Shown: piece by piece, positions 3,912 to 32,693 of the stretch
Position numbering within the stretch: the stretch's first letter is position 1
How the letters are laid out: every line of letters begins with the position of its first letter
Source: Alphaproteobacteria bacterium
GTDB lineage: Bacteria; Pseudomonadota; Alphaproteobacteria; Rhizobiales; Rhizobiaceae
Assembly (NCBI GenBank): GCA_018829385.1
Contig: JAHJUC010000670.1
Coordinates: 1-35,001, forward strand
Length of the DNA stretch: 35,001 nucleotides
Direction of reading: 5' to 3'
The notes under the pieces: generated by a model
Told to the model about the DNA's origin: nothing
What the model saw: the letters and a program-made list of their open reading frames with translations, nothing else
Database searches by the model: none
Made by a program: the position numbers and the translations under genes

Positions 3912-4145
3912 TCGCGGCAATGCTGTCCTCACCACGCAGGCCCTCCAGCACGATACGGATTTTGTCCTCGGAGGAATGGTGTTTGCGCGTCGCGCGGCGA
4001 ATGTCCTTGATCGTCTTCTCTGCCGCCGATGTCTGCGGCCCGGTTTTCTGTCTCATCTTAGCTTCCTTTGAGTGAGCTACGATGAGCCGAAAATCCTCTC
4101 TTCTCAATTAAACCAAATCTGTCTCAAGGGCGCTGATGTCGGACA
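3912..4145 (-). mobile_element. Left-end fragment of an IS3-family element, with 5' part of orfA
   Basis: Read on the minus strand, this begins with the inverted repeat TGTCCGACATCAGCGCCC at 4145. It continues through the orfA start (ATG at 4056, MRQKTGPQTSAAEKTIKD) and stops in GLRGEDSIAA. It closely matches the first 234 bases of the complete copy at 32605-34155. The rest of the element is gone; sequence from 3911 belongs to the chemoreceptor. Its left end is fused to the 3' end of ftsH. The orfA frame runs 53 bases into chemoreceptor DNA, out of frame with it, before stopping at 3859. Confidence 0.85.
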
Positions 4146-8036: not shown

Positions 8037-8594
8037 TCACAACACCACCACCTTTGCACCAACCGGCACTCTTTCATAAAGGTCTTCGACATGTGCATTG
8101 ATCATGCGAATACAGCCGTTGGAGACCGAGCGCCCAATCGACGAGGGCTGTGTCGTGCCGTGGATGCGGTAGTAGGTGTCGCGTCCGTTCCTGTAGAGAT
8201 AAAGCGCGCGTGATCCGAGCGGATTGCCGGGACCGCCGGGGACACCCTTGGCATATTTTGCGTATTTGCCGGGCTGGTGCCGGATCATGTTCTTCGTCGG
8301 CGTCCAGCTTGGCCATTTCGCCTTGCGAGCAATCGTGGCAGTCCCTTTGAAAGTAAGGCCCGCCTTGCCAACACCCACGCCGTAGCGGCGTGCAATTCCA
8401 TTGCTCAGTTGCAAGTAGAGAAAGTGGTTCGTTGGGTCGACGATAACGGTACCGGGCGCGTATCCCGAGAATGCTACTGATTGTGGCTCAAACTTGGGGT
8501 CGAGCTTGAATAACTTTACATGCGCGTGAGCCTGCGGTGCCGACATCAATGCCAAAGCCGCAAAGCCCAACATGAGTTTTCGTTTGGAGATCAT
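8037..8594 (-). CDS. L,D-transpeptidase (YkuD domain), exported
   Basis: A 185-residue cell-wall cross-linking enzyme acting in the periplasm on peptidoglycan tetrapeptides. A Sec signal ([24 protein letters not shown]) is followed by the YkuD fold with the catalytic signature: histidine in [13 protein letters not shown] and the cysteine in SNGCIRM. The ORF track extends this frame upstream to 8930, but that part is a fragment of a membrane transporter. ATG 8594 is chosen because it follows GAGGTAATC and starts the signal peptide. It could instead carry out protein anchoring, as some YkuD proteins do. Length is typical for a single-domain secreted family member. Confidence 0.92.
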
Positions 8595-8930
8595 GATTAC
8601 CTCGTGACTGATCAAATTCCGGAAGCGCCCGTTGGCGCGGCTATCCGTGATCAGGACAGCCCAGAATAGCGCGAACTCAATCCCATGTAGCAGCATGATG
8701 GCAAACGAAACCGCTCCAAGGATCAGGTTCACAACGGTCTTGACGAGCAGATACTGCCCAATCCGTTCGTATATTCGTGATGGAAGCGAAATTGCGCGGC
8801 CATCGGCCCCTTCGCCGCCCAGTGCAATCACCATCTTCTGCGTCATCACGCCGCGTTCGGCCATGAAGAAGCTGGCATAGAGCACCACGAGGAAGAGGGT
8901 GCCGTTAAAAATGGAAGGATTACCGTCCAA
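8595..8930 (-). pseudogene. Fragment of an AI-2E-family (PF01594) membrane transporter
   Basis: In frame with and directly upstream of the L,D-transpeptidase lies about 100 residues of a polytopic membrane protein: [20 protein letters not shown], then [20 protein letters not shown] and [19 protein letters not shown]. This spacing of helices and the Y-L-L-V-K-T region resemble the middle of AI-2E-family permeases. Both the N-terminal helices and the C-terminal half are absent; after FWAVL the sequence ([13 protein letters not shown]) is unrelated. The frame opens at a TTG with an in-frame TGA a few codons upstream. The merged 297-residue ORF is therefore an artefact of deletion. Confidence 0.6.
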
Positions 8931-9039: not shown

Positions 9040-10524
9040 TTATCGGATGCCCGCGACCGCTTCTCGTCCGGCTATGCGCCCCATAACCAGACAGTTGGCG
9101 AGTGAGCCGCCGCCGACATAGTCATCATAGAACACGTGTCCGGCACCTTCACCAGCGGCATAGAGACCGGGGATCACCCTGCCGTCCGCCTCAAGCACTT
9201 CGGCCTTTTCGTTGATCATGATCCCTCCAAACGTGAGGGTGACACCTGGAGCCAGCGAACGAAATGCATAGAAAGGCGCCGTCTCGATCTTGCCTGCAAG
9301 TGCGGCTTTCGGCGGCGAGGCCTTCGGCGCGGTGCCGTTTTCGACACTAGTGTTGAACTCGTTGACTGTCGCCACCAGCGCGTCCGCTGGCACACCAATC
9401 TTCTCAGCAAGTTCTTCCAGAGTTGCGGCCTCGGCCATTTCGATTCCGAGCCTACGGAAGGTGCCCATTGTTGTCTGCGAGGGTGGTAGTTCAGCGATCT
9501 GTTGATCGAAGACCAAGGATGCGCGCTGGCCAGGCTGAGCCAGAACGGCTTTGCCGTGCGCAACATATCCCTTCGATTCGTCGATGAAGCGCTTGCCCTC
9601 CTGATTCACGGAAATGCAGTAGGGGAGAGCGGCAAACGGATTGCCTGCGGCTGTTTCGACCGCGTCGACCGCCGCGATGTGAAGGGCCATGATTCCGCCC
9701 ATTCCGCGCAAGCCGGCACCGACCTCTTCTGCCAGGACAAGTCCGTCGCCGGTCGCCCATCCGATTCCACGTACCATCATGGCTTCGGCATTGGGATCGG
9801 AGTAGGCGGCAATGATCTGAGGATTTCCCGCATAGCCCCCGGTGGTGATTACCACCGATCTTGCCGCCAATTCCACGACACCTGCAGGGCCAACCGCTCG
9901 CACCCCGGAAACCGCTCCCTTGCCATCAATCACCAGCTGTTTCGCCTTCGTGTCAAAGAAGAAGCGGCCGCCCATACCCGTGATCTTCTTGCGTAGGTCG
10001 GCCAGCGTCCGAGGCATACCCATGTACGGACCGGGTGCGGTCGTGGCGGTCGCGATCCGGTAGGGTGGCATCGTTCCCTCCGGAAGAAATTCGACGCCGT
10101 GGCTGCGCAGCCAGTCCACGTCGGCACGCGCCGCCTTGGCCATGAGTTCGTAAACTGTGCGATTCCCGCGGCCTTTGCCCTTTGCCACAAAGTCTTCAAG
10201 AAAGGCATCTTGATCGCCAGCGGACTGGGAAGCGGGCATTGCGATAATGCCTGCTGAAAAGGCGGAGTTTCCTCCCGCGCGATTTTCAGGCGCCTTCTCC
10301 ACGATGGCGACCTTTGCTCCGCTCGAGGCTGCCTCAAGCGCAGCGACGGTTCCCGCCAAACCGGTTCCGATAACTACGACGTCGAACGTTTCGACAGTCT
10401 CAGGCGACGGCAGGTCAGCGGCCTTGGCCGATGTCACCGCTCCCAACCCGGCGAGGCCGGCGCCGGCTCCGAGTGTTGCGAGCATGCTTCTCCGGCTGAA
10501 CGTGTTTTTTGTGCTGTCAGTCAT
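9040..10524 (-). CDS. Tat-exported FAD flavoprotein, fumarate reductase/flavocytochrome c-like, substrate unknown
   Basis: A periplasmic FAD enzyme, 494 residues from ATG 10524 (GGAG six bases upstream; preferred to the track start 10536). A twin-arginine signal (FSRRSMLATLGAGAG) precedes the FAD-binding motif VVVIGTGLAGTVAALEAA and the C-terminal FAD contact IPGLYAAGEGAGHVF. The fold is that of the flavin domain of Shewanella flavocytochrome c3. By my alignment the equivalent of H365 is kept (MALHIA), but R402 becomes Y (ESKGYVAH), H504 becomes L (GVTLTFGG) and R544 becomes Y (DDYVGGGS). It is therefore probably not a fumarate reductase; related reductases use urocanate, methacrylate or other enoates, and related dehydrogenases use steroids. 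The neighbouring tetraheme cytochrome, 31 bases upstream in the same operon, is its likely electron donor. Confidence 0.85.
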   Translation of the reverse strand: MTDSTKNTFSRRSMLATLGAGAGLAGLGAVTSAKAADLPSPETVETFDVVVIGTGLAGTVAALEAASSGAKVAIVEKAPENRAGGNSAFSAGIIAMPASQSAGDQDAFLEDFVAKGKGRGNRTVYELMAKAARADVDWLRSHGVEFLPEGTMPPYRIATATTAPGPYMGMPRTLADLRKKITGMGGRFFFDTKAKQLVIDGKGAVSGVRAVGPAGVVELAARSVVITTGGYAGNPQIIAAYSDPNAEAMMVRGIGWATGDGLVLAEEVGAGLRGMGGIMALHIAAVDAVETAAGNPFAALPYCISVNQEGKRFIDESKGYVAHGKAVLAQPGQRASLVFDQQIAELPPSQTTMGTFRRLGIEMAEAATLEELAEKIGVPADALVATVNEFNTSVENGTAPKASPPKAALAGKIETAPFYAFRSLAPGVTLTFGGIMINEKAEVLEADGRVIPGLYAAGEGAGHVFYDDYVGGGSLANCLVMGRIAGREAVAGIR

Positions 10525-10555
10525 GGCTATCTCCATACTCAGCCACCAGTGGCGG

Positions 10556-10903
10556 CTATTTGATCTGAAACTCGAATCCCCGGTGACACATCACACACGT
10601 CACCTCGGATTCGCGGTGGATCTTGTGGCAGTCGTTGCAGGCTGGAATTTCGTCCGGTCCCAGATGGGGAGACCGGTGAGGATCGGGGAACACTGCCGGG
10701 GCATCCTGCCCCAACATTGCTCCGTGACAGGCGACGCAAACTGCATTCGGGGGCGCGACCGCAGCCGGCTCCTCCTTGTGGCAAGCGGTGCAGGCAACAC
10801 CGGCTTCTTTGTGCACGTCATGGAGTGCCTGTCCCTGCGCCATCGGCAGTATCGCCAAAACCCCTGCCAAGGTTGCGACAAGTGTTGCAATTCGTAACCA
10901 CAT
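10556..10903 (-). CDS. Periplasmic tetraheme cytochrome c
   Basis: A 115-residue exported electron carrier. A Sec signal (MWLRIATLVATLAGVLAILPMAQGQA) is followed by four CxxCH heme sites: CTACH, CVACH, CNDCH and CVMCH, with extra histidines (HDVHKEAG, DPHRSPH, HKIHRES) able to serve as distal ligands. The layout matches the N-terminal tetraheme domain of flavocytochrome c3, here as a separate subunit encoded just before its flavoprotein. GGAGGAGAAACATAC before the ATG is a strong ribosome site. It would pass electrons from a membrane quinol dehydrogenase (none in the window) to the flavoprotein. An exact FNR-consensus site lies in the 54-base gap upstream. Confidence 0.93.
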   Translation of the reverse strand: MWLRIATLVATLAGVLAILPMAQGQALHDVHKEAGVACTACHKEEPAAVAPPNAVCVACHGAMLGQDAPAVFPDPHRSPHLGPDEIPACNDCHKIHRESEVTCVMCHRGFEFQIK

Positions 10904-10936: not shown

Positions 10937-10950
10937 TTGATGGAAATCAA
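10937..10950 (-). promoter_or_regulatory. Exact FNR/FixK consensus box before the cytochrome gene
   Basis: TTGATGGAAATCAA matches TTGAT-N4-ATCAA at every specified position. It lies between usp (stop 10958) and the cytochrome gene (start 10903), both on the minus strand. The centre is about 40 bases from the start codon and only about 20 bases from the ribosome site, closer than expected for class II activation at -41.5. It may repress, or drive a very short leader. No convincing -10 is seen at the expected distance. Confidence 0.65.
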
Positions 10951-10957
10951 CGAATGT

Positions 10958-11842
10958 TCACGCCTGACTGATAGCTTCCCGTCGAGTGTATGTTGGGGGA
11001 ACGACAAGCACATCGCATTCGGCGCTGCGCAGCACGTTTTCGGCCACACTGCCGAGAAAGAGCTTCGCAACGCCACTTCGGCTATGGGTTCCGATGATGA
11101 CGAGATCCGCCGTTTCTTCCCGTGCCGCCATGAGTATCTCGTCGGCCGCAGAGTGCTGCAACTGACGAACCTTTTGTCGAATGGAACGCAACTCCAGCCT
11201 GTTCACGAAGTCGGCGAGGCTGCGTGCCGCCGCCTTTCTCTGATCGTCAAGATAAGTCTGTCGCTCCTTTGTCCGCATTGTATAGCTCATGGCCAAATGA
11301 ACCGCCGGAGCATCAAAGACATGCAGAAGCGAGGCTCGGGCTCCTCGCGCTATCTCCAGTGCCACGCCGGTTTTCACCACGCGCTCGGACCCCTCGGACA
11401 AGTCGGTGGTGATCATCACATGCCCGTAGGGGGCGACAGGCGGGGCGTTGACCATGAGCACGGGACAGGTGACGGAACGTATTGTTCGCTCGGCCGTCGT
11501 GCCGACGAACACATCCCGCAATGCCTGCCGTCGATGTGGTCCGATGACAAGGAGGTCCGGCATTTCCTCCTCGGCCGCTTGGGCGATCCCGGCGAAGGGA
11601 TCGGAAAGCACCACACGGGACTCGCAGATGACTCCATCGACATTCTTCACCGTGAGCTGCAACTCCCGGAGCAGTACGGAGGCCATATTGCGTTCGTTAT
11701 CGACAATGCGCTGCGGTTGGTCGTCATCGACAACATGAACAATCGACAGAGAAGCGTCGAACTGCTGGGCAAGCAAGGTCGCACGCCGGAGTGCGCGATC
11801 CGACCTCTCGGATAAGTCGGTGGCCAGCATGATCTTTTTCAT
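10958..11842 (-). CDS. Tandem-domain universal stress protein
   Basis: Cytoplasmic stress protein of 294 residues made of two Usp domains (about 1-140 and 150-290). Each starts with the family pattern (KIMLATDLSERSDRAL; HVMITTDLSEGSERVV). The second domain keeps the ATP-binding signature GTHSRSGVAKLFLGSVAE; in the first the motif is altered (GPHRRQALRDVFVGTTAE, the second glycine replaced), so nucleotide binding may be asymmetric. AAGGAGT five bases before ATG 11842 supports the start. The gene is divergent from the HTH-antiporter operon across a 136-base region with an FNR-type box. It is followed by the cytochrome-flavoprotein pair on the same strand, and could be co-transcribed with it. 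Tandem Usp proteins are frequent members of FNR and DosR hypoxia regulons. Confidence 0.93.
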   Translation of the reverse strand: MKKIMLATDLSERSDRALRRATLLAQQFDASLSIVHVVDDDQPQRIVDNERNMASVLLRELQLTVKNVDGVICESRVVLSDPFAGIAQAAEEEMPDLLVIGPHRRQALRDVFVGTTAERTIRSVTCPVLMVNAPPVAPYGHVMITTDLSEGSERVVKTGVALEIARGARASLLHVFDAPAVHLAMSYTMRTKERQTYLDDQRKAAARSLADFVNRLELRSIRQKVRQLQHSAADEILMAAREETADLVIIGTHSRSGVAKLFLGSVAENVLRSAECDVLVVPPTYTRREAISQA

Positions 11843-11908: not shown

Positions 11909-11949
11909 TTGATTCAGATCATCTCAATTGCACACAGCATCGCTATTCT
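11909..11949 (+). promoter_or_regulatory. FNR/FixK-type box and -10 in the usp/HTH divergent promoter
   Basis: TTGATTCAGATCAT (11909-11922) matches TTGAT-N4-ATCAA except the last base. On the plus strand a -10-like TATTCT occurs at 11944-11949. A start at about 11956 would place the box centre near -41, the class II activation position for FNR/CRP proteins, with a leader of about 22 bases to ATG 11979. The same box could serve usp in the other direction, but no clear -10 is visible there. Confidence 0.6.
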
Positions 11950-18013: not shown

Positions 18014-18070
18014 TGTCTGACATCAGCGCCCTTGAGACAGATACGGCTTAATTGAGAAGAGAGGATTTCT
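18014..18070 (+). mobile_element. Left-end scrap of the IS3-family element
   Basis: TGTCTGACATCAGCGCCC and the following 38 bases match the left end of the copy at 32605 (to GAGAGGATTT), then stop abruptly at an IS6 end. It is the same end as at 4145 but in the opposite orientation, so the two flank the 4146-18013 block as inverted repeats. Confidence 0.8.
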
Positions 18071-32101: not shown

Positions 32102-32626
32102 TTGACCCTCCCTATAGATCCAGACAGGTTCCTTGCCGACCTCCACACCCTTCGCGGTTTCGGAGCTTCAGGTGTCGCCAAGGGAGTGGCGCGGCAGGCA
32201 TATTCGGCTGCAGACGTTGCTTCCCGATCTTGGTTGGTGGATCAGTTCGCCGCAGCCGGCCTTGAGCCTGCTGTTGACCCTATAGGGAATATTTTCGGAC
32301 TGGCGGGAAGCCGCTCGCTTCTCGTTGGTTCGCACAGTGATACCCAACCGGAGGGAGGCTGGCTGGACGGTGCGCTCGGCGTAGTCGCCGGACTGGAGAT
32401 CGCACGGGCGGCGAAAGAGGCCGGTGGGCCGCCAATTTCGGTCGTATCCTTCCAGGATGAAGAGGGACGGTTTGGGGCGATTGCCGGTTCAGCCGTGTTT
32501 GCCGGCTTGCTGGCCCAAGACGAGGCGGATCAATTGGTCGATGCTGACGGCATAAGCCTCGCGGAAGCTCGACTGGCGATGAACCAATTGGTCACCGGGC
32601 CTATTGTCCGACATCAGCGCCCTTGA
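32102..32626 (+). pseudogene. M20-family amidohydrolase (allantoate/N-carbamoyl amino acid type), cut by IS3
   Basis: The first 167 or so residues of a zinc or manganese amidase. [20 protein letters not shown] gives the metal-binding histidine and aspartate and FQDEEGRFG the acidic pair, as in allantoate amidohydrolase, ureidoglycolate hydrolase and N-carbamoyl-L-amino acid hydrolase. TTG 32102 with GGAG nearby is the probable start; the track start at 31997 adds an unlikely N-terminus. Native sequence ends at 32604; the last seven residues (VRHQRP preceded by the junction codon) come from the IS end. About 60% of the protein is missing. Confidence 0.88.
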
Positions 32627-32693
32627 GACAGATTTGGTTTAATTGAGAAGAGAGGATTTTCGGCTCATCGTAGCTCACTCAAAGGAAGCGAAG

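Follow-up and report, generated by a model that had tools for sequence, protein, structure and literature searches.

A Rhizobiaceae gene pair for a Tat-type flavoprotein and a tetraheme cytochrome: a TcuA-side branch with a predicted tyrosine active site and a possible role as a respiratory reductase

The window analysed here is a 35,001-nucleotide stretch of a Rhizobiaceae contig (JAHJUC010000670.1, positions 1 to 35,001). It carries two adjacent open reading frames on its reverse strand, a cytochrome upstream and a flavoprotein downstream, separated by 19 bp and lying exactly where the earlier note had put them. The features discussed below, in which 'four members' means the window protein and its relatives L167, L168 and L065, are as follows.

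10937..10950, reverse strand: candidate FNR/FixK-type palindrome TTGATTTCCATCAA, centred 40 bp before the cytochrome ATG; exact match to TTGAT-N4-ATCAA
10556..10903, reverse strand: tetraheme cytochrome c, 115 aa, Sec-type N-terminus; PF14537 (Cytochrom_c3_2), 7e-13
9040..10536, reverse strand: flavoprotein, 498 aa, FAD_binding_2, Tat-type; PF00890, 3.5e-51
10420..10536, reverse strand: Tat-type signal region of the flavoprotein, residues 1-39, with the motif SRRSMLA and the end SAKAA; read from the translation
9679..9681, reverse strand: codon of H286, facing FccA H365 with a one-residue gap and the histidine of the TcuA 'GCHAV' motif without a gap; MAFFT and profile-profile alignments, invariant in the four members
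9565..9567, reverse strand: codon of Y324, at the FccA R402 and KSTD Y318 position; alignments, invariant in the four members
9238..9240, reverse strand: codon of T433, at the FccA H504 position; alignments, invariant in the four members
9118..9120, reverse strand: codon of Y473, at the FccA R544 and KSTD Y487 position; alignments, invariant in the four members

The cytochrome has CXXCH motifs at residues 38, 56, 89 and 103, and histidines 28, 31, 76, 80 and 96 are possible second haem ligands. In the PDB it best matches the flavocytochrome c haem domain (7.5e-6), and it is the sole PF14537 match found in its assembly. The earlier description of a tetraheme cytochrome and a Tat-exported flavoprotein encoded by separate genes is thus borne out by PF14537, PF00890 and the SRRSMLA motif. 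An AlphaFold2 model of the flavoprotein, built from an 83-row alignment, had a mean pLDDT of 90.1 and a pTM of 0.90, with one uncertain loop at precursor residues 153-171; its best PDB match was UrdA (6t86, TM 0.85), followed by UrdA 6t85 and FccA/IfcA and, lower down, by KSTD and cyclohexanone dehydrogenase. The predicted structure confirms the FAD_binding_2 fold; as FAD is absent from it, alignments alone served to map the active site.

A two-row profile search of 378 genomes of the family identified two orthologous pairs in other genera, which shows that the two ORFs are not there by chance. In L167 (complete genome G1621) the flavoprotein and the cytochrome are 79% and 64% identical to those of the window, and in L168 (genome G1741) they are 60% and 61% identical. 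Both loci have the cytochrome directly upstream of the Tat flavoprotein, with gaps of 7 and 15 bp, and both retain RRSML in the flavoprotein and, in the cytochrome, the haem motifs together with H28, H31, H76, H80 and H96. The neighbours differ: a Usp gene in the window, Nqr-type subunits and ApbE in L167 and, in L168, a reverse-strand ORF upstream of the pair, truncated close to the end of the contig, in which the C-terminal domain of an AMP-binding protein is joined to an enoyl-CoA hydratase (L168:7052-8338). Two congeners of the window genome also have this Usp gene, but there the next gene is one that we take to be DadA-like, and neither cytochrome nor flavoprotein follows; a protein with several CXXCH motifs is encoded near this locus in the congener G004 (L155:914-2020). 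Judged by sequence and gene order, the pair is a conserved, self-contained module.

Contamination or misassembly of the contig is disfavoured, as the Usp, KefB and ATPase neighbours are 73-75% identical, and an L,D-transpeptidase about 90% identical, to their counterparts in congeners, and the pair recurs in two other genomes of the family. A chimeric ORF at 8037-8930 on the reverse strand joins a fragment of an AI-2E transporter to an L,D-transpeptidase, parts that match separate places in congeners, and looks like a rearrangement scar. Parts of mobile elements (IstB/IS21, IS110-type, DDE IS240-type and DDE_Tnp_1) are found along the contig at 18-860, 6422-6943, 7202-7654 and 18414-19298. A dispersed 55-bp repeat, about 93% identical between copies, occurs three times in the window (4091-4145, about 18014-18068 and 32605-32659), and similar copies are present in G001 and at other places in this genome.

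Upstream of the cytochrome gene, the FNR/FixK-type palindrome matches a consensus for which 0.037 sites would be expected per window. The orthologous loci have a box 41 bp before the cytochrome start, TTGACGAAGATCAA with one mismatch in L167 and TTGATGCAGATCAA with none in L168, in upstream regions (110 bp) that are 25-36% identical to one another without gaps. By shuffling, the chances of such a box at that place were 5.5e-5 and 5e-6. A second FNR-type box with one mismatch lies at 11909-11922, upstream of the Usp gene (10958-11842), and its counterpart in two congeneric genomes likewise has one mismatch. Proteins with CRP-type HTH domains are encoded in the window genome, but the same family was matched in all control genomes too, so this says little. 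The position of the box counts against oxygen control: with the centre 40 bp before the ATG, a class II transcription start would coincide with the start codon, an unusual arrangement next to a possible ribosome-binding site. Recognized by its consensus alone, the candidate box probably places the pair under an FNR/FixK-type regulator and hence suggests expression at low oxygen.

The nearest relative outside the family, among the matches listed in an alignment-based scan of named genomes, is L065 from Pigmentiphaga kullae, with 43% identity to the window flavoprotein. There the flavoprotein is fused, as the C-terminal half, to an AMP-binding, acyl-CoA synthetase-like domain (L065:2297-5386). 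It has neither a cytochrome nor a Tat signal, which implies that the chemistry of the subfamily does not need a cytochrome. Its neighbours are two MmgE/PrpD genes, an SMP-30-like gene, an FAA hydrolase and a glyoxalase/dioxygenase-like gene. The subfamily is rare. No relatives above 38% identity were found in 150 relatives (at 1e-60) or in 385 and 399 genomes of the class and the phylum (at 1e-35); these strict cut-offs were validated by known members, which scored about 1e-286 or lower, and by the nearest TcuA paralogue at 5.8e-71. Nor were relatives found in 392 genomes of the order of G808, in viral contigs or in a single-sequence scan of genome contigs, and 250 relatives of Pigmentiphaga yielded nothing beyond the genome of L065 itself. 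The window cytochrome had no match in plasmids, and none of the 80 related loci among the matches listed contained an ORF with at least two CXXCH motifs. Among other members of the family, a brief search for Tat signal motifs turned up spurious matches only.

To which side of the family the flavoprotein belongs was addressed with family models and trees. The best NCBIfam model was TcuA (NF006130) at 265 bits, below its cut-off of 369, and the second best was the flavocytochrome c model TIGR01813 at 239 bits, below its cut-off of 285. In IQ-TREE analyses the window protein grouped with the Pigmentiphaga relative (100/100), and this group was sister to TcuA-like proteins (100/97) and apart from flavocytochrome c and UrdA (100/99); KSTD formed the outgroup, with the window protein outside its clade. 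Forcing the protein into the flavocytochrome c/UrdA clade was rejected (AU p=0.0018; p=0.0012 with two more members). In the structural comparison and the phylogeny called for in the earlier note, the fold is nearest to UrdA and FccA and the tree position is on the TcuA side; the description of the genes as the two halves of flavocytochrome c3 does not hold for the flavoprotein. Identity with TcuA proper was also rejected, since the NF006130 cut-off is not reached and the basic motifs of TcuA-like proteins, FQKHSYP and DFRNYTYAKYGR, are absent, with a five-residue deletion at the latter; what the protein does have is the Y/T/Y active-site set of TcuA-type proteins. Gain of the tetraheme partner by the window lineage independently is the likeliest history. 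Plasmid-borne split, cytochrome-linked Tat-like flavoproteins from Tropicibacter oceani and Salmonella fall with flavocytochrome c. The locus on the environmental Salmonella IncFIB plasmid (L170:2289-4937) has genes for a Tat-like FAD-binding protein that differs at two of three FccA positions, a cytochrome c3 and a NapC/NirT protein in a row.

Next, we compared the active-site residues. The phmmer, MAFFT and profile-profile alignments agreed in placing Y324 at FccA R402, T433 at H504 and Y473 at R544. Both arginine-to-tyrosine changes read by hand in the earlier note are thus upheld, while its change of H504 to leucine was one position off, L434 facing H505. The H365 equivalent that it considered kept is H286 if a one-residue gap is allowed, but L285 stands there in the gapless phmmer alignment. 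FccA R381 is also missing, and the residue at E378 varies within the subfamily. The earlier note had placed a tyrosine at the R402 position of urocanate reductase, which is incorrect: UrdA has Arg411 there, and its Tyr373 replaces H365 (PMC7921117). Across the family, Y/T/Y occupies the R402, H504 and R544 positions in 98 of 149 rows and R/H/R, the flavocytochrome c/UrdA type, in 26. As Y/T/Y is ordinary on the protein's own side of the family, the changes do not represent a loss within a fumarate reductase. The carboxylate-binding arginines of FccA are nevertheless missing as had been proposed, also relative to UrdA and Mrd. The earlier note's view that the changes at H504 and R544 are at odds with a dicarboxylate survives in part: a C4-dicarboxylate acceptor is unlikely, but TcuA-type proteins share Y/T/Y and TcuA oxidises a tricarboxylate (PMC10468695). 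By alignment, Y324 and Y473 also correspond to Y318 and Y487 of KSTD.

On this basis we propose, with a probability of roughly 0.55 and largely by analogy, that the pair is an oxygen-controlled periplasmic module acting as a terminal reductase for an unsaturated carbonyl compound. Falling oxygen would lead a CRP/FNR-family regulator to turn the operon on, and electrons from the quinol pool would pass through a donor to the tetraheme cytochrome and on to FAD. The substrate, an alpha,beta-unsaturated carbonyl compound, would receive at its beta carbon a hydride from N5 of the reduced FAD; its carbonyl oxygen would be held by Y473 and nearby glycine NH groups, and its alpha carbon would be protonated by Y324. 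This would be ketosteroid dehydrogenase chemistry reversed and used as anaerobic respiration. The missing FccA arginines and TcuA basic motifs argue against a C4-dicarboxylate or tricarboxylate, and an enone, lactone or monocarboxylic enoate is more likely than fumarate as the substrate. The suggestion that the natural substrate may be undescribed is supported. The occurrence of the same pair in the same order in three genomes, despite unrelated neighbours, supports this module. A more specific version, in which an oxygen-regulated, cytochrome-coupled respiratory reductase arose independently on the TcuA side, has tyrosine in place of arginine as its proton donor and serves an undescribed electron acceptor, is put forward tentatively, at odds somewhat short of even.

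TcuA and KSTD run in the other direction, as dehydrogenases. For the pair, reduction is the likelier direction, to judge from FccA, Mrd/Mcc and Cgr1/Cgr2 as analogues and from the oxygen-type box. FNR/FixK boxes govern microaerobic genes too, and a periplasmic dehydrogenase, which would oxidise a saturated ketone or acid and pass electrons through the tetraheme cytochrome to the respiratory chain at low oxygen, is an unlikely but serious competitor. The assembly, which is 76% complete, yielded no quinol-oxidising cytochrome of the NapC/NirT type; this counts against a quinol-fed reductase and for the dehydrogenase. Small bis-His tetraheme cytochromes, on the other hand, are low-potential carriers, which disfavours it. 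TcuA (PMC10468695) and KSTD (PMC5348764) work as dehydrogenases with the same tyrosines, but reduction is the reaction of the characterised pairs of Tat flavoprotein and tetraheme cytochrome and of the fused flavocytochromes c with this fold (PMC4427408, PMC5953540, PMC7921117).

Distinctly less probable is an enzyme for a di- or tricarboxylate such as aconitate or tricarballylate, in which R160, K/R322 and K329 take over carboxylate binding. The sister position of TcuA-like proteins fits this, as do the two MmgE/PrpD genes beside L065 and the conservation of these residues in the four members (R160 and K329 invariant, position 322 always K or R); R160 and K/R322 could bind one carboxylate, so that the case named in the earlier note as refuting its reading, arginines from elsewhere at the same positions, may yet apply. 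The missing basic motifs and the unreached TcuA cut-off stand against it, and no TRAP-like or TcuC-like transporter and no TcuB adjoins the pair in the window. The reading put forward in the earlier note, a genuinely split flavocytochrome c from the FccA lineage whose fumarate-binding residues were lost, is very improbable: the tetraheme partner and the overall fold resemble FccA, but the tree, the AU test, the TIGR01813 cut-off and a residue set ordinary on the other side of the family lead us to reject it.

Periplasmic flavoprotein/cytochrome reductases extend the range of organic compounds that bacteria respire or inactivate, such as fumarate, urocanate, methacrylate and digoxin. FccA, UrdA and Mrd have one arginine/histidine active site in common, to which Cgr2 is the known exception. 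The window pair, as read from its sequence, appears to be a second branch, on the TcuA side, that is tetraheme-coupled, has tyrosines in its active site and is preceded by a conserved control site of the oxygen type.

Compared with known systems, the window protein is closest in the tree to TcuA, with which it has Y/T/Y and a histidine at matching positions in common; unlike TcuA it is predicted to be exported, has a cytochrome partner and lacks FQKHSYP, DFRNYTYAKYGR and TcuB. With the flavocytochromes c3 FccA and IfcA, the pair has in common the fold, the FAD domain, a tetraheme c3-type partner and the periplasm, and with Mrd/Mcc the combination of a Tat flavoprotein and a Sec cytochrome (PMC4427408). 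Mrd retains Arg353, His461 and Arg501 (PMC4427408), whereas the window protein lacks the residues equivalent to R402, H504 and R544 and belongs to a different clade from FccA and Mrd. UrdA is the best structural match and retains Arg411, His520 and Arg560, with Tyr373 at the H365 position (PMC7921117), but the window protein shows the reverse at all four positions and has no FMN-binding domain; a UrdA-like identity was rejected because the residues differ at every diagnostic position. Catalysis by KstD1 relies on Tyr487 and Gly491 to polarise the ketone; the proton at C2 is abstracted by Tyr318 and Tyr119, and the hydride at C1 goes to FAD (PMC5348764). The KSTD structures (KstD1, 4c3x; 7p18) align Y318 and Y487 with Y324 and Y473 of the window protein, the counterparts mapped being those of these two tyrosines and not of Y119, but KSTD is a distant outgroup and has no cytochrome partner. 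L065 has the subfamily signature (DESKGYVAxGKA, TLTFGG and DYxGGxSLxNCLVMGRIAGREA) in common with the window protein, from which it differs in its fusion to an AMP-binding domain and its lack of a Tat signal and a cytochrome. Like the window pair, Cgr1/Cgr2 consists of a PF14537 cytochrome and a Tat flavoprotein, the latter from the same Pfam family as that of the window (PMC5953540). Cgr2 also lacks the FccA residues and has a tyrosine and a glycine in common with KSTD, but by its description it is set apart from the window protein, with a [4Fe-4S] cluster and closest homologues less than 28% identical (PMC5953540). By its predicted features, the window pair fits, in three genomes, the functional class of Tat flavoproteins paired with Sec multihaem cytochromes (Mrd/Mcc and Cgr type), which is not a clade. 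The two-component periplasmic flavoprotein/cytochrome kind is known; what is new, on the evidence of the alignments and trees, is a separate flavoprotein branch with a predicted tyrosine active site.
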